Part shown: positions 5,390-20,535 of the stretch, piece by piece
How positions within the stretch are numbered: the first letter of the stretch is position 1
How the letters are laid out: the number at the start of each line of letters is the position of its first letter
Virus record (IMG/VR): IMGVR_UViG_3300030110_002095
Location: 1 to 21,474 of that record
DNA: 21,474 bases
DNA from: a virus
Strand: one strand, 5' to 3'
Notes under the pieces: generated by a model
What the model was told of the DNA's origin: nothing
Database searches by the model: none
The model's input: only the letters and a program-made list of their open reading frames with translations
Made by a program: the position numbers and the translations under genes

Positions 5390-7320
5390 TATTGGGTGGC
5401 GTCGTAAAAGGTTACACCAGGACTCGGTTTATAAGAAGTAGACGCGCCGCTTGGCAAAGAACCACCTAGCTCCGCAAAATATATATCAGCTATTTCTTGA
5501 TCTATGTAATTATCTAACCTTCCTATGTCGGCAAAGAACTGTACGGAGGCCATAATATCTCTTTTAGCTGCATTTCGTTTTTGAACTATACTGTCTATAT
5601 TATTATTTAAAGTCTTTTTAAGCTCTGCTATGCTTGAAATTTTAGTCAAATCTAAATTACCTACAATACGATTGGCTACTTCTCTGTCTATGTTTGATAT
5701 GGTTCTGCCTGACTCACCTAAAATTTCTTTAATATTTCTGTTAGTAAGTTCTCTCAAAGCAATCTGTGCCTTTTTCGTATCGCTTAAATCATTAAATTCG
5801 CTTAAATCTTTTACATTGGCAGCAGCAAGTATATCGTCAACACTAGCGCCTAACTTAGCTCCAAAAGTAGCCAAATCTTCATTACCGTTAGCCAAATCTA
5901 TTACAGATTGGGCCATTTTTTCGGCAGCGAGAGCATTGTTATAGTCTTGGATGCTTTGGTTCATTTCACCCGCAACAGTTCTTATAGATTTTTGATCGCT
6001 AATTTTCACAGGCTCTCTTTTTTTACCAGCTGCTTTTTCTTCAGCAGCGGCGGCAGCGCCTAATGTAACCCCTGAAGCAAACTCGCCAGTCTGGGCTAAA
6101 CCTTTACCTACATTTCTTACGTATCTTATAAAGTCTGGGCTGGATACAAATTGTGCAAAACGAGATTCTTCTGGAATATCTCTATCTCCAGCGCCCGTAT
6201 CTTCTACACCTGCTGCCGCATCTCCTTCTCCTGCGGCCGCATCTCCTTCTCCTGCGGCTGTATCTCCAGCGTCTGCCCCTGTATCTTCACCAGTTTCATC
6301 TCCAAAAACTTCAAGCTCTGGTTTGAATCTTTTTTCTAAGTCTATATTTTCTTCTACGAATTTTTTGACATCTATATTTTCAAGATCTTTTGTAATTTCA
6401 TCATCGTCAATGCCTGCCGCAGATTTAACTATATTATCAATTACTTCGGGAGTGAATCCACCCCTTGCCGCATACCCCTCTGGGAAGTCTTTATCAAAAA
6501 ATCCTCTAATATTTTCTAAAGTATCTTCACCTACAAATGGATAAAGAGCGCCTGGTACTAATGTGGCTAGACCCTCGCTGCCAAAATCAAATAAGCCTTT
6601 TGCTCCTGCAATTAAACCACTACCAAAATCTTCAGGGCCGTAAGCTGTACCCCTTCTCTCTTCTAAATCTCCTCCAAACATTTCTCCGAAAAACTTTATA
6701 GCTCCAGGTTCATCAGATTTGATAAATTTAATCAGAGCATCATCAACATTTGTACCTGTTTCAATATCAGGAGAGTTAAAAATACGATACAAAAAAGCGC
6801 CTTTTCCTTTGCCATCTTCAATATCTTTTATACCTTGGGTGAAATCTACGATTGTTCCGTCACTTAATCTTATATCGTTTGGTCCTAGTATTTCTGTATT
6901 TTCTGTTTGAGGTAGTTCTTCTGTTAATGTGTCTCCTCGCATTACAGCTTCAATATCTTCTGAGAAATCAGGCGTAGGTAGATTGGGAATAGTCTTATCG
7001 GTAGTAAAGAAACCATCTGTAACAGGCGGTACAATATTTTGAAGGGTGTTTGCATCTGCGCTTATTGTAGCCATATTAGGACTTTGATTAACTATTGTCA
7101 TAGGTCCACCCACCTCTATAGCTATTCTTTCGATTGTAGCCAACCCCAAATCTTTTGGGAATGGCACACCCATACTTACGTAATCAGATTGTAATTTTTC
7201 TAATATTTGTACTGGCGCTAAACCACTTCTAGATAGATTTGCTATCTCTGTAGTCACATCTATAAGAGGTTGATTGACCACATCTCCAGCAGCAAACATT
7301 CTTCTATTTAATATGTTCAT
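5389..7320 (-). CDS. Large virion-associated protein with low-complexity acidic/Ala segment (643 aa)
   Basis: The start ATG (7320-7318) shares ATGA with the stop of the 448-residue gene. The N-terminus has RRMFAAGDVVN, related to the FAAGG motif in the 480-residue neighbour. Residues 15-75 are helical; about 340-390 is a disordered Gly/Ala/Asp/Glu segment that includes a seven-residue tandem repeat AAGEGDA; the C-terminal half is mostly charged helices (for example INREVANRIV-like stretches). No enzyme motif was seen. Its position between other virion-like genes and the coupled starts suggest an internal or ejection protein. The specific role is unknown. Confidence 0.6.
   Translation of the reverse strand: MNILNRRMFAAGDVVNQPLIDVTTEIANLSRSGLAPVQILEKLQSDYVSMGVPFPKDLGLATIERIAIEVGGPMTIVNQSPNMATISADANTLQNIVPPVTDGFFTTDKTIPNLPTPDFSEDIEAVMRGDTLTEELPQTENTEILGPNDIRLSDGTIVDFTQGIKDIEDGKGKGAFLYRIFNSPDIETGTNVDDALIKFIKSDEPGAIKFFGEMFGGDLEERRGTAYGPEDFGSGLIAGAKGLFDFGSEGLATLVPGALYPFVGEDTLENIRGFFDKDFPEGYAARGGFTPEVIDNIVKSAAGIDDDEITKDLENIDVKKFVEENIDLEKRFKPELEVFGDETGEDTGADAGDTAAGEGDAAAGEGDAAAGVEDTGAGDRDIPEESRFAQFVSSPDFIRYVRNVGKGLAQTGEFASGVTLGAAAAAEEKAAGKKREPVKISDQKSIRTVAGEMNQSIQDYNNALAAEKMAQSVIDLANGNEDLATFGAKLGASVDDILAAANVKDLSEFNDLSDTKKAQIALRELTNRNIKEILGESGRTISNIDREVANRIVGNLDLTKISSIAELKKTLNNNIDSIVQKRNAAKRDIMASVQFFADIGRLDNYIDQEIADIYFAELGGSLPSGASTSYKPSPGVTFYDATQ
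6215..6267 (-). repeat. 21-bp tandem repeat inside the 643-aa gene
   Basis: Two identical adjacent 21-base copies (6215-6235 and 6236-6256), followed by a diverged partial copy to 6267. They encode the seven-residue unit AAGEGDA on the minus strand. The copies are in phase with the reading frame, so copy-number change would not break the protein. Confidence 0.85.
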
Positions 7321-8663
7321 ACGTTTGGAAAATATCCCTGATTTGGTCCCGCTAGAGGATTATATTGATTGAAGGGATTTGTAGTTACTGGGGGAGAGTA
7401 CGGACCACCCATTCCAGCAGCAGGTAACATTTGATTCAGTACCGCAGGTATTGTTCCGCCAAAATTCTGCGGATTGTATACTTGATTTCCAGTTCCATCA
7501 GGAGTAGGAGTAGGAGTAGGTGTAGGTGTTGGAGTCGGTGTAGGTGTAGGTGTTGGAGTAGGTGTTCTTTGTTGATTTTGTGTGTTCGCAAAATTAGCAT
7601 ACGTACTCAAGGCAGTGGACAGAGCTTGTACTCTTGGATCTGGTGGCTGTCTAAATTTAGTATCTACTTGCGTTACTCCACCTTGATAAGTTGGTAAGAA
7701 ACCTTGAACGTAACTTGCGGCAGATGTAGGTGCAAATCTAGTCTCTCTTTGTTGATCAAATGCTCTTTGCAATCTTTGATCTGCGATACCACGTTGTAAT
7801 CCACCAAGTCCTAACAGTTCACTTCTTTCGCTTTGTCCTAATCTTTGTATATCTTCTCCTAATCTTCCAATATTTCCACCATATTGAGCGATGTCGGCTC
7901 CTATATTCCTTGAAAGTCCAGCTCTCCTGCCGCCTATACCACCCAATTGAGTTGCAAAACCAGATAAATTACCAGCAAGCCCTTCTAGGCCACGTGCTCT
8001 TCTACCAAATTCATCAACGCCCAATCTTTGCGCCTCTGTGAATCCTTGCCTTCTAATATCTGATAAAGCTTCTCCTAGACCTCTTCCTAAAGCTCTACGT
8101 CTATCTGCGGCACTTAATCTAGCTCTTGAACCAAAAGCAGATTCTCCGCCTGTTTGTATGTCTCTAGCTCTAGCGTCAATATCCGCAAGCTCTCCAGCTT
8201 TAAAAACATCATCAATAGTTTGTTGAACTACTCTCTGTTCAAAAGGATTATAAAACTGAGTGGCAAATCTGGGATCGTATCCCATACCTGCTGCTCGTCT
8301 TGCAATATCAGTCGCTTCTCCTACAAGTGCTTGCTCACCAGCAAAATAAGGTTGAGCTATATCTTCTGCTCTAACTGATCTGCCTATGGCTTGTTGTAAG
8401 TTTTGGAGGTTGGTATCTAGAAAAGGCTGAAAAGAACCTATTCCGCTTAAAGCACTTTGTATAGCTCTTGATTCAATAGGGTCTAAATCAGCAGTTTCCC
8501 TGAGTATTGCAGGCGCGCCGTAAGCCCTATTAGCAGCTTCTATAGCTTGCGATATTATTCCTGGAGTATCAGGAGAACCAAAGTAAGCCTCTCTGATAAA
8601 AGGATCAGATATTGTTTCTCGTCTATCTATACTTGTTGGTACTGGATTTCTTGATTTTGCCAT
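7317..8663 (-). CDS. Virion-associated protein with Thr-Pro repeat hinge (448 aa)
   Basis: The ATG (8663-8661) overlaps the TAA of the upstream gene (TAATG). The N-terminus (SDPFIREAYFGSPDTPG) is extended. Residues about 60-340 are Arg/Ala/Gly/Gln-rich helices that look like a long coiled or bundled rod (ARRAAGMGY, RARGLEGLAG, IGRLGEDIQRLGQ). A run of 11 Thr-Pro pairs follows at about residues 367-388, then a Pro/Asn-rich tail ending FNQYNPLAGPNQGYFPNV. The (TP)n segment would be a stiff disordered linker. No catalytic motif was found. Like its neighbours it is best explained as an internal or tail-associated virion protein. The function is not known. Confidence 0.6.
   Translation of the reverse strand: MAKSRNPVPTSIDRRETISDPFIREAYFGSPDTPGIISQAIEAANRAYGAPAILRETADLDPIESRAIQSALSGIGSFQPFLDTNLQNLQQAIGRSVRAEDIAQPYFAGEQALVGEATDIARRAAGMGYDPRFATQFYNPFEQRVVQQTIDDVFKAGELADIDARARDIQTGGESAFGSRARLSAADRRRALGRGLGEALSDIRRQGFTEAQRLGVDEFGRRARGLEGLAGNLSGFATQLGGIGGRRAGLSRNIGADIAQYGGNIGRLGEDIQRLGQSERSELLGLGGLQRGIADQRLQRAFDQQRETRFAPTSAASYVQGFLPTYQGGVTQVDTKFRQPPDPRVQALSTALSTYANFANTQNQQRTPTPTPTPTPTPTPTPTPTPTPDGTGNQVYNPQNFGGTIPAVLNQMLPAAGMGGPYSPPVTTNPFNQYNPLAGPNQGYFPNV
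7501..7566 (-). repeat. Hexanucleotide microsatellite coding for (Thr-Pro)11
   Basis: Eleven consecutive 6-base units, GGAGTA/GGTGTA/GGTGTT/GGAGTC variants on the plus strand, reading ACN-CCN on the minus strand. The third codon bases vary while every unit still codes Thr-Pro, so the protein repeat appears to be kept by selection and not only by recent slippage. Confidence 0.9.
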
Positions 8664-10138: not shown

Positions 10139-10888
10139 TTAAATAAAATTCATTTCTAAATAAGTTTTTTTATCTTCCCAACAAGGACGAGATATTAACC
10201 AAAAGACCAATAAATAACGATCTCCTGACTGTACAGGTAGTCCTCGGTGCATATGTGTAAAGCTTGGAAACATCAAAGCGCTACCTGTAGGAAGTGGTTC
10301 AACGATGCCTCTACCTTGAAATTCTGTACCACCTCCCTCGTATTCCCCTGTATTTAAAGGGACTACTACGCTTATATCTGCGCTGGCGTCGTGATGCCAA
10401 GCTCCTTGTTGTTTGTCTTTTATATTGTAATTGGCTATTTGTACGCCACCATCTGTAACGACCCTACCCCAAAGACCCATGAATATTGGGTTGAATATAT
10501 TGCTGACGACATTCATTAAAGACAAATACAAATCAGGTATATGATCTTGTAAAACTATCTCGGGTATCTGTCTTAGCTTGTCCTCGTCTGTATTAGGCTC
10601 AAAGTTAAAATGTTCTTTTATATTATCTAGTTCGTCTTTGAATATATCGCAAAATGTTTCTGAGAATATAGGTGCTGTATAAACATCTTTAATTGGTTCG
10701 TTTATAACGGAATGTAAGGGTAAGTTGTCTAGGTTTTCTTGACCTTTGGATTTTAAAAAACGAACTATATCTAGTTGAGATTCTTTGACGGCTTGAAAAG
10801 TTTTGTCTTCTATAAACCAATCAGACGGCTGAGTTAGAAGTAAATTTTTTACTTCATACGGTGTATTTGTAGTATCTACAGCCTGCAT
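10139..10888 (-). CDS. 2OG-Fe(II)-dependent oxygenase (prolyl 4-hydroxylase-like)
   Basis: 249 residues. The double-stranded beta-helix core is clear: AWHHDAS gives the HxD metal pair (His165, Asp167), THMHRGLPV gives the distal metal His214, and SGDRYLLVFW supplies Arg224 for 2-oxoglutarate binding. The pattern EGGGTEFQ between them is typical of the P4Hc group. The N-terminal 130 residues are helical and unassigned. Such enzymes hydroxylate proteins or small molecules using O2 and 2-oxoglutarate. Here it sits between a fibre-like gene and virion genes, so a phage structural protein is a possible substrate (inference). It starts one base after the upstream stop (TGATATG). Confidence 0.85.
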   Translation of the reverse strand: MQAVDTTNTPYEVKNLLLTQPSDWFIEDKTFQAVKESQLDIVRFLKSKGQENLDNLPLHSVINEPIKDVYTAPIFSETFCDIFKDELDNIKEHFNFEPNTDEDKLRQIPEIVLQDHIPDLYLSLMNVVSNIFNPIFMGLWGRVVTDGGVQIANYNIKDKQQGAWHHDASADISVVVPLNTGEYEGGGTEFQGRGIVEPLPTGSALMFPSFTHMHRGLPVQSGDRYLLVFWLISRPCWEDKKTYLEMNFI

Positions 10889-13526: not shown

Positions 13527-13922
13527 TCATTCGCCCCAAGTCCCATCTTTTTTAACATGTCCTGTCTTTGTTCCGCCCCAGTATTCAACAGCGTGTCCTT
13601 CCTTGATAAGCTTTTGACAAACATCTTCACCATCTGCCGTATAAGGTACGCCCAAAATTCTGCCATATTTACCTTTACCTAAAGATTTAATCCTAAATGT
13701 GCCTTCGCATAATTCTTTCAATCTTTCTTTAGCTTTTAAACCTAAAGCCTTTTCTTCTAAATTTCTTGTTCTAGATTCTGGTGTGTCAATACCAGCGAGC
13801 CTAACTCTTTGTTTATGCAGTTTTACATCAAAACCAAGGTCTAAGATACAATCAAATGTGTCACCATCTACTATACGATCGAGTGTAGCTCTATAAACAA
13901 ATTCATCTGGGGTCCTACTCAT
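13527..13922 (-). CDS. Staphylococcal-nuclease-like (thermonuclease) protein
   Basis: 131 residues. VDGDTF (Asp19, Asp21), RVRLAGIDTPES (Arg41, Asp46, Glu49) and GKYGRILG (Arg88) match the metal and catalytic residues of the SNase fold, so it should be an active Ca-dependent sugar-nonspecific nuclease. No signal peptide is visible, so it would act in the cytoplasm unless released at lysis. It lies between the o-spanin and the endolysin. The start overlaps the lipoprotein stop by 8 bases. Phage SNase-like proteins may help degrade host DNA or scavenge nucleotides; which applies here is not shown. Confidence 0.88.
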   Translation of the reverse strand: MSRTPDEFVYRATLDRIVDGDTFDCILDLGFDVKLHKQRVRLAGIDTPESRTRNLEEKALGLKAKERLKELCEGTFRIKSLGKGKYGRILGVPYTADGEDVCQKLIKEGHAVEYWGGTKTGHVKKDGTWGE

Positions 13923-14283
13923 CTTCAGTTTCCTGTGGTTTATCTAACTCTCTATAATATTTAATGATAGCCAGTATATCTTTTGTGTACCTAGTTATTT
14001 CTGCCATGTCCATTGATAGATTCTCATACTCCCTAGCTGATAAGGAGTAGAAAGCTCTTGGTGGTGCGTTCCCTGCTGACAAACTATCTAAATACTCTTG
14101 CATAGTAGTTGGCGTTAAAACCTCCCAATCTACATTTGTAAGACTCATAGGGTAAGGCAAAGGCGGATGATATATAGGTGATCTTTCGGCTATAGTTTTA
14201 ACTTGAACAGGTTTGACGGCCTGTTGAAAAGTAGAACAACTAGCCAACAAAATTATAAAACTAATTAGTGCTAGATTTCTCAT
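13915..14283 (-). CDS. Outer-membrane lipoprotein, probable o-spanin (Rz1-like)
   Basis: 122 residues with a lipoprotein signal: RNLALISFIILLASC, with the modified cysteine at residue 16. A Pro-rich stretch follows (SPIYHPPLPYP), then SLTNVDWEVLTP, and a helical C-terminus with EYENLSMDMAEITRY and IIKYYRE. I recall this C-terminal pattern from phage genes next to endolysins. Together with the coiled-coil membrane protein just upstream it would form a two-component spanin that fuses inner and outer membrane after murein is cut. Its start overlaps the i-spanin gene by 23 bases, recalling the nested Rz/Rz1 arrangement. Confidence 0.75.
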   Translation of the reverse strand: MRNLALISFIILLASCSTFQQAVKPVQVKTIAERSPIYHPPLPYPMSLTNVDWEVLTPTTMQEYLDSLSAGNAPPRAFYSLSAREYENLSMDMAEITRYTKDILAIIKYYRELDKPQETEDE

Positions 14284-14665
14284 TTGATTTTTCTGGGTTA
14301 CTCAATCTCTCTAATTCAGCCATAACTCTTGCTGAACCTCTATTTATTCTTCTTTGCATGTCTTCTGGATTAGCTAGAGCAGATTCATCTAAATCTAAGT
14401 TTGCAAATGTTTTCCGTAGTTTGTTTACATTTTCCATAGCTTTTTTATTCTCTGCTGCAAGTGTATTCATTTGTTGTTGTTGTTGCTTTGCTTGTTCTAG
14501 ATGCTTTTCTATTGCATCGTTTTGTTTTTGTATCTCTGTTTCTAAGATTAATTGATTTCCTTTGAGGGTGCTTATCTGATCTGCTTGATAATCTATGTAC
14601 CAAGCTGATCCAGCAATTGATACTACTAACAGTCCGCTTAATATTATTGATAGTTTTAATCCCAT
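14261..14665 (-). CDS. Inner-membrane coiled-coil protein, probable i-spanin (Rz-like)
   Basis: 134 residues. An N-terminal membrane anchor (about residues 5-25, SIILSGLLVVSIAGSAWYI) is followed by a long periplasmic coiled coil rich in Gln, Lys and Glu (QISTLKGNQLILETEIQKQ, then a Gln run and AENKKAMENVNKLR) and a charged tail with NRGSARVMAELERL. This is the standard Rz organisation. The gene overlaps the cyclase stop by 10 bases and the lipoprotein start by 23. It is predicted to pair with the lipoprotein at the outer membrane. Confidence 0.8.
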   Translation of the reverse strand: MGLKLSIILSGLLVVSIAGSAWYIDYQADQISTLKGNQLILETEIQKQNDAIEKHLEQAKQQQQQMNTLAAENKKAMENVNKLRKTFANLDLDESALANPEDMQRRINRGSARVMAELERLSNPEKSNEKSSTN

Positions 14666-16401
14666 GTATATATATTTAAAGGTTTACTTATACCTTTTAC
14701 CTCTATTGGTTTTAATGATTTTAGCTTAAATCCACAATTTTTTGCAGTCTCCTCTGCAATTATTAAATCTACGCCTACTGTTTTGCAACTTGATTCACAC
14801 CTAGCAGCTATATTTACAGCAGAACCAATAGCTGTGTAATCAAATCTAGTGGACGACCCACAGTTACCTATCACAGCTTCACCAGTGTTTACTCCCACTC
14901 CTATTTCAACACCAATATCTGCGAGTTTAAATTGATCTTGTATTTCTTTAGCACATAATACAGCTGCTTCTTCGTGATTTTCCAAGTCTAAAGGAGCGTT
15001 AAATATGGCAAACATGGCGTCCCCTATGTACTTGTCTATCATACCGTCATACCTTTTTACTGTTTCAGATTGTATAGTTAAAGCCTCATTCATAATTTTA
15101 ATTACGCTTTCAGGGTCCATAGTTTCGCTCATAGCTGTAAAACCTCGCACGTCTGTGAATAAAAATGTGCATCTTTTCTTTTCACCACCCAACTTTAGTA
15201 GACTAGGATCAGATTGTAGAGCCTTTACTTGTCTAGGATCTAAGTAATGCTCAAATTGTTTTTTAATTTGCTGTCGTAGTTTGTATTGTTCTCTAAAACG
15301 CAAATAGAAAGCTACTGTGGCTGTAATAAATTGTGACACCAAAGCCCAAGTTACATCTATCAAGATACCATTTTGTATGGTATTTACTCCGTAAAAGGCT
15401 GTGGATGCAAACACTACAGCAAAAAATAATACGCCCCATGTGATACCAAAAACATTCAATACAAGCCAAACAAAAACTAAAGAGAACAAAAATATTAATA
15501 ACTCTAGAGCCAATGCGTAGTCAGGTATGTACGGACTATCTTGTATAAGTATAGATTCAGCAAGCGCTGCTTGTATTTTATGTGGTTCTAACAGACCTAC
15601 TGGTGTAGCAAGCTGCGGCATAATACCTTTTGCAGTAAACCCAACGAATACAAATTTATTTTCTACATCCATCTCTGCTAAAGATGTTTCACGTGGAACA
15701 ACCCAAGAAATCCATTTACGACCTAGACTATCAGTTTTTACTGGAGGTAATCCTTTTACTCTGACTTCTTCAACACCATTATCATTAGTTTTTATAACGT
15801 AGGTATCTGCTCCAGCTAAAACTTTGAGAACTTCTGTACCGTATGAAGATACCCAACCATTAGGAGTACGCATCAGTAAGGGCAGCCTACGTATTAAATT
15901 ATCAGCATCCGTACGAGCAACTGCTATACCTTGACTGGCGTTATGTTTCAAAACATCTATATTTTGTATAACACCTGTTGCCATCATGCCACCAGTATTT
16001 TCAGGACCTAAAATCACAGTGCCAGATGTAGGCGGATACTCACCTTTACCTTCAAACATAGCTAAAACACTTGGAGAAAATTTTAAAGCTTCAGTAAACT
16101 CAAAGTCACCACCAAACCTATCTGGTTGTGGAAAAGCCATGACCCAACCTACGCCCATAGCGCCTTGTCTTAATAAATTGATGTGTATTTGAGCTAATGT
16201 TTGTCTAGATAAAGGATAACCACCTTCGTTAGCTATATCTTCTTCTGTTATATTTAAAACTACAAAATTGCCTGATTCTTCCTTTTCTTGTATAAAACTA
16301 TCAAATGTTTTTAATTTTAATATCTCATAAGCAATTGGTTGAAAATAATAAACAGATCCAAGTGCCATAAATAAAATTAAAAATATAATAGTTTTTTTCA
16401 T
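14656..16401 (-). CDS. CHASE2-domain class III adenylate cyclase
   Basis: 581 residues. TM1 is at about 4-20; an extracytoplasmic CHASE2 sensor spans about 25-290 (FVFVGFTAKGI and a PHKIQAALAESIL helix are typical); three TM helices lie at about 298-317, 320-337 and 345-367; a short linker (KQFEHYLDPRQV) precedes the cyclase homology domain at about 408-581. Catalytic residues are all present: metal Asp417 (LFTDVRGF) and Asp461 (IGDAMF), adenine-selecting Lys457 and Asp521 (DKYIGD, FDYTAIG), and transition-state Asn530 and Arg534 (VNIAAR). It should therefore make cAMP from ATP at the inner membrane, most likely as a homodimer, in response to a periplasmic signal. Its ATG overlaps the FecR gene stop (ATGA). 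CHASE2 cyclases beside FecR-domain genes are a familiar bacterial pairing. A cyclase of this type on a phage is unusual. Confidence 0.93.
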   Translation of the reverse strand: MKKTIIFLILFMALGSVYYFQPIAYEILKLKTFDSFIQEKEESGNFVVLNITEEDIANEGGYPLSRQTLAQIHINLLRQGAMGVGWVMAFPQPDRFGGDFEFTEALKFSPSVLAMFEGKGEYPPTSGTVILGPENTGGMMATGVIQNIDVLKHNASQGIAVARTDADNLIRRLPLLMRTPNGWVSSYGTEVLKVLAGADTYVIKTNDNGVEEVRVKGLPPVKTDSLGRKWISWVVPRETSLAEMDVENKFVFVGFTAKGIMPQLATPVGLLEPHKIQAALAESILIQDSPYIPDYALALELLIFLFSLVFVWLVLNVFGITWGVLFFAVVFASTAFYGVNTIQNGILIDVTWALVSQFITATVAFYLRFREQYKLRQQIKKQFEHYLDPRQVKALQSDPSLLKLGGEKKRCTFLFTDVRGFTAMSETMDPESVIKIMNEALTIQSETVKRYDGMIDKYIGDAMFAIFNAPLDLENHEEAAVLCAKEIQDQFKLADIGVEIGVGVNTGEAVIGNCGSSTRFDYTAIGSAVNIAARCESSCKTVGVDLIIAEETAKNCGFKLKSLKPIEVKGISKPLNIYTWD

Positions 16402-17513
16402 CCAGACCCTTGCTTGATAGTAATAGTGGTTGAAGAACCGCCATTTACTTTCACTGTATTTGATACTCCGTCTTGTACTAAGATGATAGTATAGCTTTGA
16501 GAACCGTCTAATGACAGTCTTGCGCTTTGGCTTACGGATCTAATCATACTTATGTTTTGACCTGATACTATAGTAGTAATCTGTGTGTCTTTGTCTTGGC
16601 CTATATCTGTACCAGTGATACGTATACCTACACCACCCTTTTTGAGTTGATCTTCTTCTTTGGATATTGCCAAAGCATCTATAACATTAAGCAAATCCTC
16701 AAGAAAATTTACGTCTAAATAATTTATATCTAATTCAGTAAATTCAAGATCAGCCTCTGTATCAAGAAAATCTTCATTTAAATAATCAATATCTAGATCG
16801 TTAAAATCCAAATAGTCTACTGTCGATTTTGATTGTGTCTCTTGTATTTGTTTATCTGTTTCCTCTGGTGGATTGACGATCAACATGTTATCAATCAAAT
16901 CTAGCGATATATCTAAAGTTACAGGCTTAGTGGGATTGTTCTCGTATACAGATACAGTTGTTGCCTGGTATGGTTTATTCAACGTCACACTACCCATAGC
17001 TGTAGATACCATGATTTCACCACTAGATATACCATTCTCATCAGGTAACAGTATGACAAGGGATCTACCTAATTCATCTACTGTACAAGTAAAGTCTGTG
17101 CCTCTAATTGCTATATCAGCGGTAGGAGTCTTGATAGATATATTGCTTTTATTATTGAATTTGCCTGTGATGAATCTTGCTGTGCCACTAGCAAACTTCA
17201 AGGCCATTTTTGATTTTGAAGGATCAGGATCATAGATATATTCATCTATAACCAATTTTGAATGTTCTGTCAGTTTTACTGTAGAAGAGTCTTCAAAAGT
17301 TATGGCGACTCTGCCCGCTTCTGTGCGGACATCATCCATTTGTTGTATATCAAACTCTAGTTCAGCACCATAAGGCTTGTCTCGTAGAACTTGAGCATTA
17401 CCTCTAAGTTCTGAAATTGCGCCTATCTCAACAGACGAATGAAGTAGTTGAGTCTGACTGAGTAACGCAAACAGTACCGTTAGAGCCAACAGACGTAATT
17501 TTGAGCCAGTCAT
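16398..17513 (-). CDS. Periplasmic FecR-domain protein with acidic repeat and curlin-like C-terminus
   Basis: 371 residues. The signal peptide is at about 1-27 (KLRLLALTVLFALL core). The FecR domain is at about 30-190: FASGTARFITGKF followed by ISIKTPTADIAIRGTDFTC is the family signature. Residues about 233-275 are a degenerate acidic repeat of units like DINYLDVNFLE. The C-terminal 32 residues contain LVQDGVSNTV, a Q-x-G-x-x-N pattern as in curlin repeats, then NGGSSTTITIKQGSG. FecR-domain proteins act as periplasmic sensors, classically with sigma regulators, and also occur beside CHASE2 cyclases. The start lies 86 bases inside the 3' end of the curlin-like gene in another frame and has no clear Shine-Dalgarno; the next Met would remove the signal peptide, so the overlap is kept. 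It probably signals to, or senses the fibre for, the cyclase (inference). Confidence 0.8.
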   Translation of the reverse strand: MTGSKLRLLALTVLFALLSQTQLLHSSVEIGAISELRGNAQVLRDKPYGAELEFDIQQMDDVRTEAGRVAITFEDSSTVKLTEHSKLVIDEYIYDPDPSKSKMALKFASGTARFITGKFNNKSNISIKTPTADIAIRGTDFTCTVDELGRSLVILLPDENGISSGEIMVSTAMGSVTLNKPYQATTVSVYENNPTKPVTLDISLDLIDNMLIVNPPEETDKQIQETQSKSTVDYLDFNDLDIDYLNEDFLDTEADLEFTELDINYLDVNFLEDLLNVIDALAISKEEDQLKKGGVGIRITGTDIGQDKDTQITTIVSGQNISMIRSVSQSARLSLDGSQSYTIILVQDGVSNTVKVNGGSSTTITIKQGSG

Positions 17514-18186
17514 TATCTTGAGTTGATTCTTGGTCTATGTTAAAAGTCCTTGTACTTCCTGTATGATCTAAGTAAAAGTAACCACCAGCGTATCCATCGC
17601 CATCATAAGTTATTGTATTATCACTACCATCAATATCCATATAGTTAGTAGCCCCGTCAACATCTATATTAGAAGTTATAGTGTTGCCTGAACCTTGGAC
17701 TATCCAATCTAAATCAAGGTTTGCAGCTAATGCTGTCATCGCATGGTTTAATGTTGCTGTGTTTGTATTGCCTGTAAACTGAACATTCACGTTAGAACCG
17801 TCAGCCCCAGTTGCGTTAGTCTCATCAGTAGACATGTTAAATGTATTGGTATCACCTATGAATGAAAAATAACCCGTATAGTTATCCGCCCATATATCAC
17901 CAAGAAATTTATTAGTATTACCTTTTTGTAAAATATCTAAAGTCATGGTTGTGCCATCCAAATCCAATGGTGTCATATTGGAAGCACCAGCTGTTGCATC
18001 AGCACCACCTATGATATTACCGCTACCCCCAACTTGTTCTATATCTAGATTGGATGTAGCACCTGATTGATCTATAAATATTTCATTGTCTGCACTTATT
18101 AAATGCAAAGATAAAATTAACAAACTAAAACCAAATAAAATCGCCTTGAAAAGTTCAAGAACTTGTTTTCCAGTATCCTTGTTCAT
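17428..18186 (-). CDS. Secreted curlin-like repeat protein (candidate CsgG substrate)
   Basis: 252 residues. A long signal peptide (1-32, hydrophobic core FGFSLLILSLHLI, Ala32 before DNE) is followed by about eight imperfect repeats of roughly 22-28 residues. Their shared pattern is hydrophobic-x-hydrophobic-(Q)-x-G-x-x-N-T-hydrophobic. Clear units include DILQKGNTNKF (84-94), FSFIGDTNTFN (107-117), VNVQFTGNTNTATL (133-146), WIVQGSGNTIT (161-171) and MDIDGSDNTITY (183-194). These resemble the amyloid-forming repeats of CsgA/CsgB but are more Asp-rich and less Gln-rich. Two cysteines lie near the end (CVTQS, FVC). It is directly downstream of csgF-csgG with a GAGGAAGG ribosome site, so it is the best candidate for the exported subunit. 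Amyloid formation is not shown by sequence. Confidence 0.7.
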   Translation of the reverse strand: MNKDTGKQVLELFKAILFGFSLLILSLHLISADNEIFIDQSGATSNLDIEQVGGSGNIIGGADATAGASNMTPLDLDGTTMTLDILQKGNTNKFLGDIWADNYTGYFSFIGDTNTFNMSTDETNATGADGSNVNVQFTGNTNTATLNHAMTALAANLDLDWIVQGSGNTITSNIDVDGATNYMDIDGSDNTITYDGDGYAGGYFYLDHTGSTRTFNIDQESTQDNDWLKITSVGSNGTVCVTQSDSTTSFVC

Positions 18187-18955
18187 ATCCTTCCTCTATT
18201 GTTTGTAAAACAGCTGTCTCGATAGCCATCTGTAAAGCAATATTTATAGACTCATTCTCTACTATACCGCTCTCTATTTCAACTAATTCGGTGTTATTTG
18301 CATAAAATCTGAACACATCAGAAGATACAGATGCGCTAAGTATTGTTTTGGTAACTAACACTTCAAGTAATATTTTACCTGTCAAAACAGATACAGTTCG
18401 TAAAGATATAGTTACTGAGTCCTGTCTGTATTCTTTTGATGCACCTATACCTAAATATCTTGCACCAGCTCCACCTGACTTGATATTGGTTTCATAACCT
18501 ACAACTCCGCCCTCCATCAACAAGCCAGCGAATAGTAAAGGTTTGAGTTGTTGTTTTTCATCAAAATTTTCTCTGGCAGAACGAATAATTTGTCTTTCTT
18601 TTGTTAGATGATCTAATCCTGTACGCTCTACAACATCAAACACACCAGAATGTTGCAAGGCCCTAATCAAATAGGCATCAGGTGATTGTGTGATAGCCGT
18701 ACTAAAGCTCGCATATTGGCTGTTGCTTCTGCGCTGTCCTGTATCGTCTTTGAAAGAACCAGGATATACAGCTACTACAGGTTTGCGTTCGGGAGTAGGA
18801 ACTTCTGCTAGTTTGGTCAATAAAGAACCAACCTCTGCTGACTCAATATTTCTTACGGGTGGTATTCCATTGTCTAATGGCGGTATGGTTAAGGCGCAAC
18901 TAGAAAGTAAAAGAACCGAGAGGTACAGTAATTTCTGTTGTATTGCCTTCTTCAT
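18155..18955 (-). CDS. csgG: CsgG, curli secretion outer-membrane lipoprotein pore
   Basis: 266 residues, close to the 277 of E. coli CsgG. The lipoprotein signal ends LLLSSC with Cys20. The mature core aligns well: PVVAVYPGSFKDDTGQ, FSTAITQSPDAYLIRAL, VFDVVERTGLDHLTKER, GGVVGYETNIKSGGAGARY with LGIGA, and KTILSASVSSDVFRF. The KSGGxGARYxGIGA block and the VERxGLxxLxxER block are strong family markers. CsgG forms a nine-subunit outer-membrane barrel that exports unfolded curli subunits. The constriction residues differ from E. coli: by ungapped alignment Phe84 equals Phe56, but Tyr51 and Asn55 are both replaced by Ser, with a Tyr two residues downstream of the Tyr51 position (Tyr81). The start has no Shine-Dalgarno and lies 56 bases inside csgF. 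Confidence 0.95.
   Translation of the reverse strand: MKKAIQQKLLYLSVLLLSSCALTIPPLDNGIPPVRNIESAEVGSLLTKLAEVPTPERKPVVAVYPGSFKDDTGQRRSNSQYASFSTAITQSPDAYLIRALQHSGVFDVVERTGLDHLTKERQIIRSARENFDEKQQLKPLLFAGLLMEGGVVGYETNIKSGGAGARYLGIGASKEYRQDSVTISLRTVSVLTGKILLEVLVTKTILSASVSSDVFRFYANNTELVEIESGIVENESINIALQMAIETAVLQTIEEGYEQGYWKTSS
18188..18197 (-). promoter_or_regulatory. Shine-Dalgarno of the curlin-like gene, inside csgG
   Basis: On the minus strand AGAGGAAGGA lies just before the ATG at 18186, with GAGG about six bases away. It sits within the csgG coding sequence. It contrasts with csgG and the FecR gene, whose starts have no evident site, and suggests that the subunit is translated more strongly. 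Confidence 0.65.
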
Positions 18956-19367
18956 CTGTAATTATTAGTGTTACCTTATCGTCTTCTACTCTATATTCTA
19001 TGGTGTTGCCTTCTAATTCTAAAGTGCCGAACTCAGATGCAGTCTCACCAAATAAACTATCAACCAACTGTCTGCTTAGTTGTGCGTATATTCTACTCTC
19101 TAAATTACGTATAAATCTTGCAAGAGTGGTGTTATCTGCTTCTCTCTCTAAATCTTCTACATAAGCTTTGATTTCCTCACGTATAGCTTCTTTTCTATTG
19201 AACTCTTGGTTTTCAATGGTTAAATAATGACTTGATGTTCCAACACCTGAAAAACTAGGATTTTTGAACTTATGTGTCATCTCATCTGCTTGTACAGATA
19301 AAACCAAAAACATAACAATAATTATGGAAGCTATCAGCAATACTTCATCAGGACGTTTAGAAGGCAT
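18900..19367 (-). CDS. csgF: CsgF, curli secretion pore accessory/cap protein
   Basis: From the ATG at 19367 the protein is 155 residues (E. coli CsgF is 138). A signal peptide with a strong hydrophobic core (VLLIASIIIVMFLVLSVQA) is cut before DEM. The mature N-terminus DEMTHKFKNPSFSG matches the CsgF signature MTxxFxNPxFxG, which inserts into the CsgG pore. A helical region (FIRNLESRIYAQLSRQLVDSLF) and C-terminal beta strands (NTIEYRVEDDKVTLIITDEEG, ITVPLGSFTF) agree with the family fold. The frame is open to 19445, but the extra 26 residues overlap the upstream gene and precede a perfect signal peptide, so 19367 is chosen. The C-terminal 18 codons overlap csgG. CsgF couples secretion to nucleation at the cell surface in curli systems. 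Confidence 0.92.
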   Translation of the reverse strand: MPSKRPDEVLLIASIIIVMFLVLSVQADEMTHKFKNPSFSGVGTSSHYLTIENQEFNRKEAIREEIKAYVEDLEREADNTTLARFIRNLESRIYAQLSRQLVDSLFGETASEFGTLELEGNTIEYRVEDDKVTLIITDEEGNTTEITVPLGSFTF

Positions 19368-19372
19368 AATTT

Positions 19373-19570
19373 TTATAGATAAGTAATTACTAAATCTACA
19401 CTTTTTACTGTATCTATCCAATAAAATGTTATATAGCCAAGCCAACTAAATGCGATTAGGAAGCAACAAGCTACTGCATATCTTTTCCAATTTTCTTGTA
19501 ATAAATCTAATGTTTTATCAATAAAATTAAATACTTTTTGTCTTTTTGATATTTTCTTTTTTCTTGCCAT
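19373..19570 (-). CDS. Small single-pass membrane protein (65 aa)
   Basis: 65 residues: a very basic N-terminus (MARKKKISKRQK), an amphipathic stretch, then one membrane segment (about 32-53, YAVACCFLIAFSWLGYITFYW). AAGGAG at 19581-19576 is well placed before the ATG. The basic N-terminus predicts a cytoplasmic N-terminus. It sits five bases upstream of csgF and may belong with the small membrane-protein cluster or serve the cassette. No family was recognised. Confidence 0.65.
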   Translation of the reverse strand: MARKKKISKRQKVFNFIDKTLDLLQENWKRYAVACCFLIAFSWLGYITFYWIDTVKSVDLVITYL

Positions 19571-19947: not shown

Positions 19948-20241
19948 TTAATCAACTCTTCTAATTCCCTCTTGCTTTTTATTTTTTGATTCTGCTGTTT
20001 CATCTTTCCCCTCGTTTTCTCTTATTTCCAAAACAGTATTTACCTTTTGTTGTAACCTTATCATGTCTTGATCTAGTAATCTTAATTGATCAGTTAGACG
20101 AATAATAGTTGCTTTCATCTCTTGAACAGAAGGATCTATCTTATTAGTTATTGTTTGCCAGACAAAATATACAAAATAACCTAAACCTACAACCATAACT
20201 ACTGGAAATCCAAAGTCTGCGACTATCTGAACTACATCCAT
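19948..20241 (-). CDS. Small holin-like membrane/coiled-coil protein, paralogue A (97 aa)
   Basis: An N-terminal membrane helix (about 5-29, IVADFGFPVVMVVGLGYFVYF) is followed by a coiled coil (ATIIRLTDQLRLLDQDMIRLQQKV) and a charged tail. It has the same length and layout as the adjacent gene upstream, with shared positions such as G-x-P in the membrane segment, YF at its end, and the block DMIR. The ATG immediately follows the TAA of that gene. The layout resembles BhlA/UviB-type small phage holin-like proteins, but this is topology only. Confidence 0.6.
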   Translation of the reverse strand: MDVVQIVADFGFPVVMVVGLGYFVYFVWQTITNKIDPSVQEMKATIIRLTDQLRLLDQDMIRLQQKVNTVLEIRENEGKDETAESKNKKQEGIRRVD

Positions 20242-20535
20242 TTAATCTCTTCTAGCGTCTATTTTACCGTCCTCTACAAAGTTTTCTGCTCTTGCTATAC
20301 GGTCTAGGTCTGGAGGTAGGTTCAAAGCGCTAGAGACGCTTGTATCTATACGAATCATATCGTTGTTCATAATAGATGCTCTAGTAATTAACATTTTGGT
20401 TATACCTTGTACCGTTTGTATTTCGCTAATCAAACCATCCATAAGCTGTTTCATTACTAAAAATATAAAGTAGGCCATTATAAGTGCGCCCGCAATAGGC
20501 AGGCCTAATTCAGCGATTAGATTGAACGCTTCCAA
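20242..20535 (-). CDS. Small holin-like membrane/coiled-coil protein, paralogue B (97 aa)
   Basis: 97 residues: an N-terminal membrane helix (about 4-28, NLIAELGLPIAGALIMAYFIF) and a helical tail containing NNDMIRIDTSVSSALNLPPD, ending DARRD. It appears to be a duplicated copy of the neighbour at 20241-19948, retaining the G-x-P, YF and DMIR positions but otherwise well diverged. Its function is unknown. It is grouped with the 108-residue holin candidate and the XhlA-like protein upstream. Confidence 0.6.
   Translation of the reverse strand: MEAFNLIAELGLPIAGALIMAYFIFLVMKQLMDGLISEIQTVQGITKMLITRASIMNNDMIRIDTSVSSALNLPPDLDRIARAENFVEDGKIDARRD

Follow-up and report, generated by a model that had tools for sequence, protein, structure and literature searches.

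What role does a membrane-bound adenylate cyclase play on a phage genome, and with which genes does it act? The DNA stretch analysed here (the window, 21,474 bases) is a virus record carrying primase, structural, spanin and endolysin genes. It is therefore read as a phage fragment, and the first-pass annotation, which had regarded the cyclase as a phage gene, is borne out in this respect. The features of the window relevant to this question are listed in the table.

Table. Features of the cyclase gene, its neighbourhood and its active site in the window
Feature	Position	Strand	Basis or remark
CHASE2 - 3 TM - class IIIb adenylate cyclase, 581 aa	14656..16401	-	ORF listing (ATG start), Pfam, hydropathy, model
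Membrane helix 1 (residues 5-23)	16333..16389	-	Hydropathy, AlphaFold2 model
CHASE2 sensor domain (residues 17-306)	15484..16353	-	Pfam range; periplasmic side expected from topology
Membrane helices 2-4 (residues 297-315, 324-342, 346-364)	15310..15513	-	Hydropathy, AlphaFold2 model
Linker helix (residues 365-400, RQQIKKQFEHYLDPRQV); zone of sensor/cyclase exchange between phages	15202..15309	-	
Cyclase domain (residues 408-575)	14677..15180	-	Pfam, alignment, structure overlay
Asp417, metal	15151..15153	-	Alignment, 81 homologues
Lys457, adenine	15031..15033	-	Alignment, 81 homologues
Asp461, metal	15019..15021	-	Alignment, 81 homologues
Thr523, adenine position	14833..14835	-	Alignment; Asp521 of the first-pass annotation (14839-14841) is two residues away
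Asn530, catalytic	14812..14814	-	Alignment, 81 homologues
Arg534, catalytic	14800..14802	-	Alignment, 81 homologues
FecR-domain protein, signal-peptide-like start	16398..17513	-	Pfam; stop overlaps cyclase start by 4 bases
Curlin-like (CsgA/B-position) repeat protein	17428..18186	-	Position; homology to the curlin-annotated gene of HTVC008M/Melnitz
CsgG outer-membrane pore	18155..18955	-	Pfam 3.1e-53
CsgF	18900..19445	-	Pfam 6.7e-19; listed from an upstream TTG, real start probably internal
Two small one-TM coiled proteins, 97 aa each	19948..20535	-	Kept upstream of CsgF in cassettes
Rz-like spanin and Rz1-like lipoprotein	13915..14665	-	Rz start overlaps cyclase end by 10 bases
Endolysin (phage lysozyme)	13082..13666	-	

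The cyclase protein is composed of an N-terminal CHASE2 domain (Pfam, 1.2e-25) and a C-terminal Guanylate_cyc domain (1.5e-17; 64 bits against a cut-off of 21.9). Hydropathy gives four membrane segments, and the AlphaFold2 model of the protein (29 sequences, mean pLDDT 88.7) contains helices at all of them. The CHASE2 domain followed by three membrane helices is the arrangement of a CHASE2 receptor. These observations agree with the reading frame, sensor and four helices described previously. An overlay of the predicted structure on class III cyclases, proposed at the same time, was carried out. The cyclase domain superposes on CyaC from Spirulina/Arthrospira (1wc1_C; Z 25.8, 1.6 Å, 176 residues) and on Pseudomonas aeruginosa CyaB (3r5g_A; Z 25.6, 1.5 Å, 175 residues), the closest adenylyl cyclase folds among the matches listed. 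The Guanylate_cyc domain and the fold, with Z of about 25 to both proteins, identify a class III nucleotide cyclase. CyaC and CyaB have input domains different from the CHASE2 of the phage cyclase. The model of CHASE2 alone has a mean pLDDT of 47.9, and the matches listed in the structure search correspond to the cyclase domain, none covering CHASE2, so that the search says nothing on the CHASE2 fold.

In the alignment, the canonical positions are occupied by D417, K457, D461, N530 and R534, including the metal-binding Asp pair (D417/D461) and the transition-state residues (N530 and R534) characteristic of class III. Five of the six residues named in the first-pass annotation thus keep their places, whereas the alignment puts Thr523 in the place of Asp521. 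The phage segment RFDYTAIG aligns with RSDFTAIG in CyaC and RMDYTIIG in P. aeruginosa CyaB, the DYT/DFT motif being common to all three proteins. Thr523 is located seven residues N-terminal of the catalytic Asn530, a spacing which we take to be the same in the mammalian pair D1018/N1025 and in T1139/N1146 of CyaC. Moreover, among the 81 homologues and the window, position 523 is Thr or Ser in every phage row except Melnitz, and six phage rows have Ala or Ser at position 521. Gammaproteobacterial homologues have mostly Ala or Ser at position 521, often Ala521 together with Thr523. The alignment with CyaC/CyaB and the variability at position 521 rule out Asp521 as the adenine residue. Because the second adenine residue is Thr523 and not Asp521, the pair K457/T523 (Lys and Thr/Ser replacing Lys and Asp) assigns the cyclase, on its sequence, to class IIIb (Lys/Thr) rather than IIIa. 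The correction shifts the class and leaves the predicted cAMP synthesis standing. A threonine has been said to predict bicarbonate control in sAC-like cyclases, a rule that is not universal (PMC3383692). Taking this threonine as the equivalent of Thr523, bicarbonate control of the phage cyclase may be considered as a lead only.

Across the 81 phage homologues, D417, K457, D461 and R534 are invariant and N530 is replaced in one case. Pairwise comparisons give dN/dS values of 0-0.17 for the CHASE2 and cyclase domains alike, the reading frame is intact in nearly all phage copies, and selection on the gene is purifying. In view of the near-invariant catalytic residues, the purifying selection and the 1.6 Å superposition on CyaC, the window cyclase likely makes cAMP. 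The earlier description as a catalytically complete enzyme accordingly stands for the class III set, with one residue corrected, and cAMP output is a prediction from sequence. The cyclase of phage Melnitz (L083) has Ser in place of Asn530 and Asp at the 523 position, unlike all others, and may be inactive or altered.

The cyclase stands at the end of a mobile phage T8SS (curli) cassette with the order CsgF-CsgG-CsgA-like-FecR-cyclase. In all 33 loci whose upstream sequence reaches 3.5 kb or more, CsgF, CsgG, CsgA-like and FecR genes are present upstream of the cyclase. On 80 viral contigs, the nearest recognised upstream gene is FecR in 70 of the 72 loci where this could be judged, and the two genes mostly overlap by 4 bases; three loci (L053, L066 and L078) have a gap of 0.7-1.7 kb. 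In 51 of the 76 loci that could be assessed on the other side, the next recognised gene after the cyclase belongs to the lysis set (Rz, Rz1 or endolysin). The window shows the order of the pelagiphage T8SS cassette, with the curlin-like gene, which has no Pfam curlin match, recognised by position and homology only. Rather than a lone, unusual auxiliary gene, as initially proposed, the cyclase has a fixed place at the end of a published curli cassette (PMC9599517), annotated in HTVC008M and Melnitz. No Pfam histidine kinase domain was found in the window; the two 97-aa membrane proteins occupy the place of the kinase upstream of CsgF. Such a pair of one-helix coiled proteins is also present upstream of CsgF in HTVC008M and Melnitz. 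A role of the FecR protein as a sigma-type iron regulator was considered and not adopted, as the protein has only a FecR domain (PF04773) and a signal-peptide-like start.

Wittmers et al. (2022) described the cassette in podovirus and myovirus pelagiphages and named its FecR and adenylate cyclase genes, both of which are expressed in ocean metatranscriptomes (PMC9599517). The cassette described there has the same order (CsgF, CsgG, CsgA/B, FecR, cyclase) and likewise lacks CsgE. Its histidine kinase is described as short and divergent; the window differs in that it has neither a Pfam histidine kinase nor a second CsgA gene placed between FecR and the cyclase. The viral cyclases group together in that report, with alphaproteobacterial ones nearest. 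This work thus already covers the cassette, its cyclase and a clade of phage sequences, and the window cyclase is a well-preserved member of the published cassette. In the text consulted we found no mention of the window contig, of domain swapping, of a class IIIb assignment or of a receptor gap. New relative to the published cassette are the sensor-cyclase exchange, the C-terminal difference, the FecR-cyclase pair in bacteria and the receptor gap, which are described below. Earlier myophage studies described CsgF and CsgG but not the cyclase (PMC7029224, PMC9004378).

The cassette gene set is annotated in the same order in Pelagibacter phage HTVC008M and Methylophilales phage Melnitz. The cyclase of HTVC008M, a T4-like myovirus, is located behind the curli genes (AGE60353.1); it contains CHASE2 and cyclase domains with an intact catalytic set, and is about 35% identical to the window cyclase. 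In HTVC008M one additional gene separates the FecR-like gene from the cyclase. In our tree, one branch with SH-aLRT 100 divides 28 phage-context rows from 45 bacterial rows. The phage copies branch together, as in the published work, and form a clade of their own against bacterial CHASE2 cyclases, a point that the first-pass annotation had left to phylogeny. A 1.5-kb record labelled Salmonella phage (H47, OR851715.1) has a csgG-like gene and may be host DNA.

The sensor and cyclase halves have different histories and were exchanged between phages at the linker helix. Compared with two other loci, the window is 98% (L021) and 97% (L014) identical in CHASE2 and 61% identical to each in the cyclase domain. 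The opposite is observed between L006 and L080, with 57% identity in CHASE2 and 98% in the cyclase; the cyclase proteins of the window and L025 are identical. The DNA identity shifts near base 1050-1200 of the gene, which corresponds to the linker helix, and in L017 it recovers in the next gene. Over 3160 pairs, sensor and cyclase identities have a correlation of only 0.18. In addition, separate trees conflict: the cyclase data reject a sensor-based group (p-AU 1.7e-49), and the sensor data reject the L080/L081 grouping (8e-12), which the cyclase data do not (0.28), these p-values being descriptive because the groups were picked after the identities had been seen, with the identity jumps as the main evidence. 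In these natural chimeras the linker helix tolerates exchange, and they provide ready pairs for probing what CHASE2 senses.

The genome scan mostly gave phage cassettes in metagenome bins, and cellular relatives were obtained from broader profile searches. Six loci with phage curli-cassette genes (L085, L086, L087, L088, L092 and L095) lie in bins labelled as bacteria (Pelagibacter MED605, Neomarinimicrobiota, Maricaulis, Flavobacteriaceae and Saprospirales), and their contigs are probably mis-binned phage. Alphaproteobacterial CHASE2 adenylate cyclases share the domain order and the Lys/Ser-Thr active site with the phage proteins, but are longer (about 740-800 aa). Phage proteins mostly stop at the cyclase domain, with 0-7 residues further, whereas the bacterial relatives continue for 65-87 residues; Melnitz keeps 76. 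Of 20 bacterial CHASE2 cyclase loci, 9 have a FecR-like gene no more than 7 kb away, against about 0.2 expected by chance in the same genomes, which have about three FecR domains each. No Csg genes were detected within 7 kb of the 20 loci with phage-built models, which distant members could escape. Because it is found in bacteria without detected curli genes, the FecR-cyclase pairing is probably older than the curli cassette.

Candidate readers of cAMP were sought in phages and possible hosts. A DNA comparison with the phage collection gave no close match to the window. The structural and primase proteins of the window have their best matches in a variety of marine phages (34-40% identity), the structural protein being 40% identical to that of a gammaproteobacterial phage and 34-36% to those of HTVC023P/027P. 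A search of 20 related phage records, of which 18 may be fragments, gave no cNMP-binding domain. The SAR11 order, the host group best known for these phages, was covered by 117 genomes, the order being chosen from a Pelagibacter bin; HTH_Crp does not exceed the cut-off in any of these genomes and no CRP-type regulator was found. The only class III cyclase among them sits on the phage cassette contig itself. A cNMP domain is present in 8 of the 117, always in large proteins or ORFs, which are the sole candidate cAMP readers seen in this sample. Large proteins of this kind occur in G064, G105, G048, G028, G058 and G086 (L101-L107), and L101, the single one examined in full, has its cNMP domain fused to an acyltransferase domain. 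Because these genomes contain no CRP-type regulator, CRP-mediated control of host genes is unlikely for SAR11 hosts, and the proposed effect on host catabolite control finds no backing in this sample, although SAR11 may not be the host of the window.

The catalysis and topology of the window cyclase are well supported predictions. The protein would be located in the inner membrane, with CHASE2 on the periplasmic side and the catalytic domain in the cytoplasm, and a homodimer would form two complete class IIIb (Lys/Thr) active sites converting ATP to cAMP. CHASE2 may sense a periplasmic cue linked to the exported, translationally coupled FecR-domain partner, and the cAMP level would then track envelope state or curli export. 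That the FecR-domain protein provides the CHASE2 input is guessed from the pairing of the two genes, and is tentative and rather doubtful. Taken as a whole, a CHASE2-regulated class IIIb cyclase of the curli cassette, making cAMP in FecR-coupled sensing of the envelope or curli export, is the reading that we consider reasonably probable. A role in lysis, with the cyclase belonging to the lysis operon and timing lysis by an envelope cue, would account for the 10-base overlap with Rz and for the frequent lysis genes downstream. However, HTVC008M and Melnitz retain FecR and cyclase without annotated lysis genes downstream, the constant neighbours of the cyclase are the upstream ones, and late-gene co-transcription suffices as a reason for its position, making this role distinctly unlikely.

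An increase in host cAMP acting via CRP on host catabolite genes appears improbable as well. The complete catalytic set would permit it, and CRP is present in many marine Gammaproteobacteria and Alphaproteobacteria; but the receptor survey speaks against it on both the phage and the SAR11 side, and HTVC008M, recorded with Pelagibacter HTCC1062 as its host, has an intact cyclase. That the gene is a dead or decaying remnant hitchhiking with the curli cassette is very improbable: the N530S change in Melnitz and the absence of the roughly 80-aa bacterial C-terminal extension from most phage copies fit such decay, yet the metal, Lys and Arg residues are invariant, dN/dS is low and nearly all frames are intact. 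A different product (cGMP, cCMP or cUMP) would suit the absence of a CRP-type receptor, but Lys457 and Thr523 form the ATP-type pair, and guanylyl cyclases have Glu at the Lys457-equivalent position, as seen for Cya2 in the alignment, so that we hold this to be highly unlikely.

If the cyclase of the curli cassette is active in SAR11-like cells without class III cyclase or CRP, the phage brings a second messenger whose usual reader is missing. Either an unrecognised cAMP receptor would then exist, or the nucleotide would work in some other way. A bolder variant, in which cAMP from a swappable sensor-cyclase chimera, carried with the curli cassette, serves as a private phage signal through a non-CRP receptor in hosts lacking their own class III cyclase and CRP, is conceivable though unlikely. 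Elsewhere in the window, one protein of the structural region (7317-8663, 448 aa) contains an extended tract of Thr-Pro repeats, and a 2OG-Fe(II) oxygenase-like gene is located amid structural genes (10139-10888).
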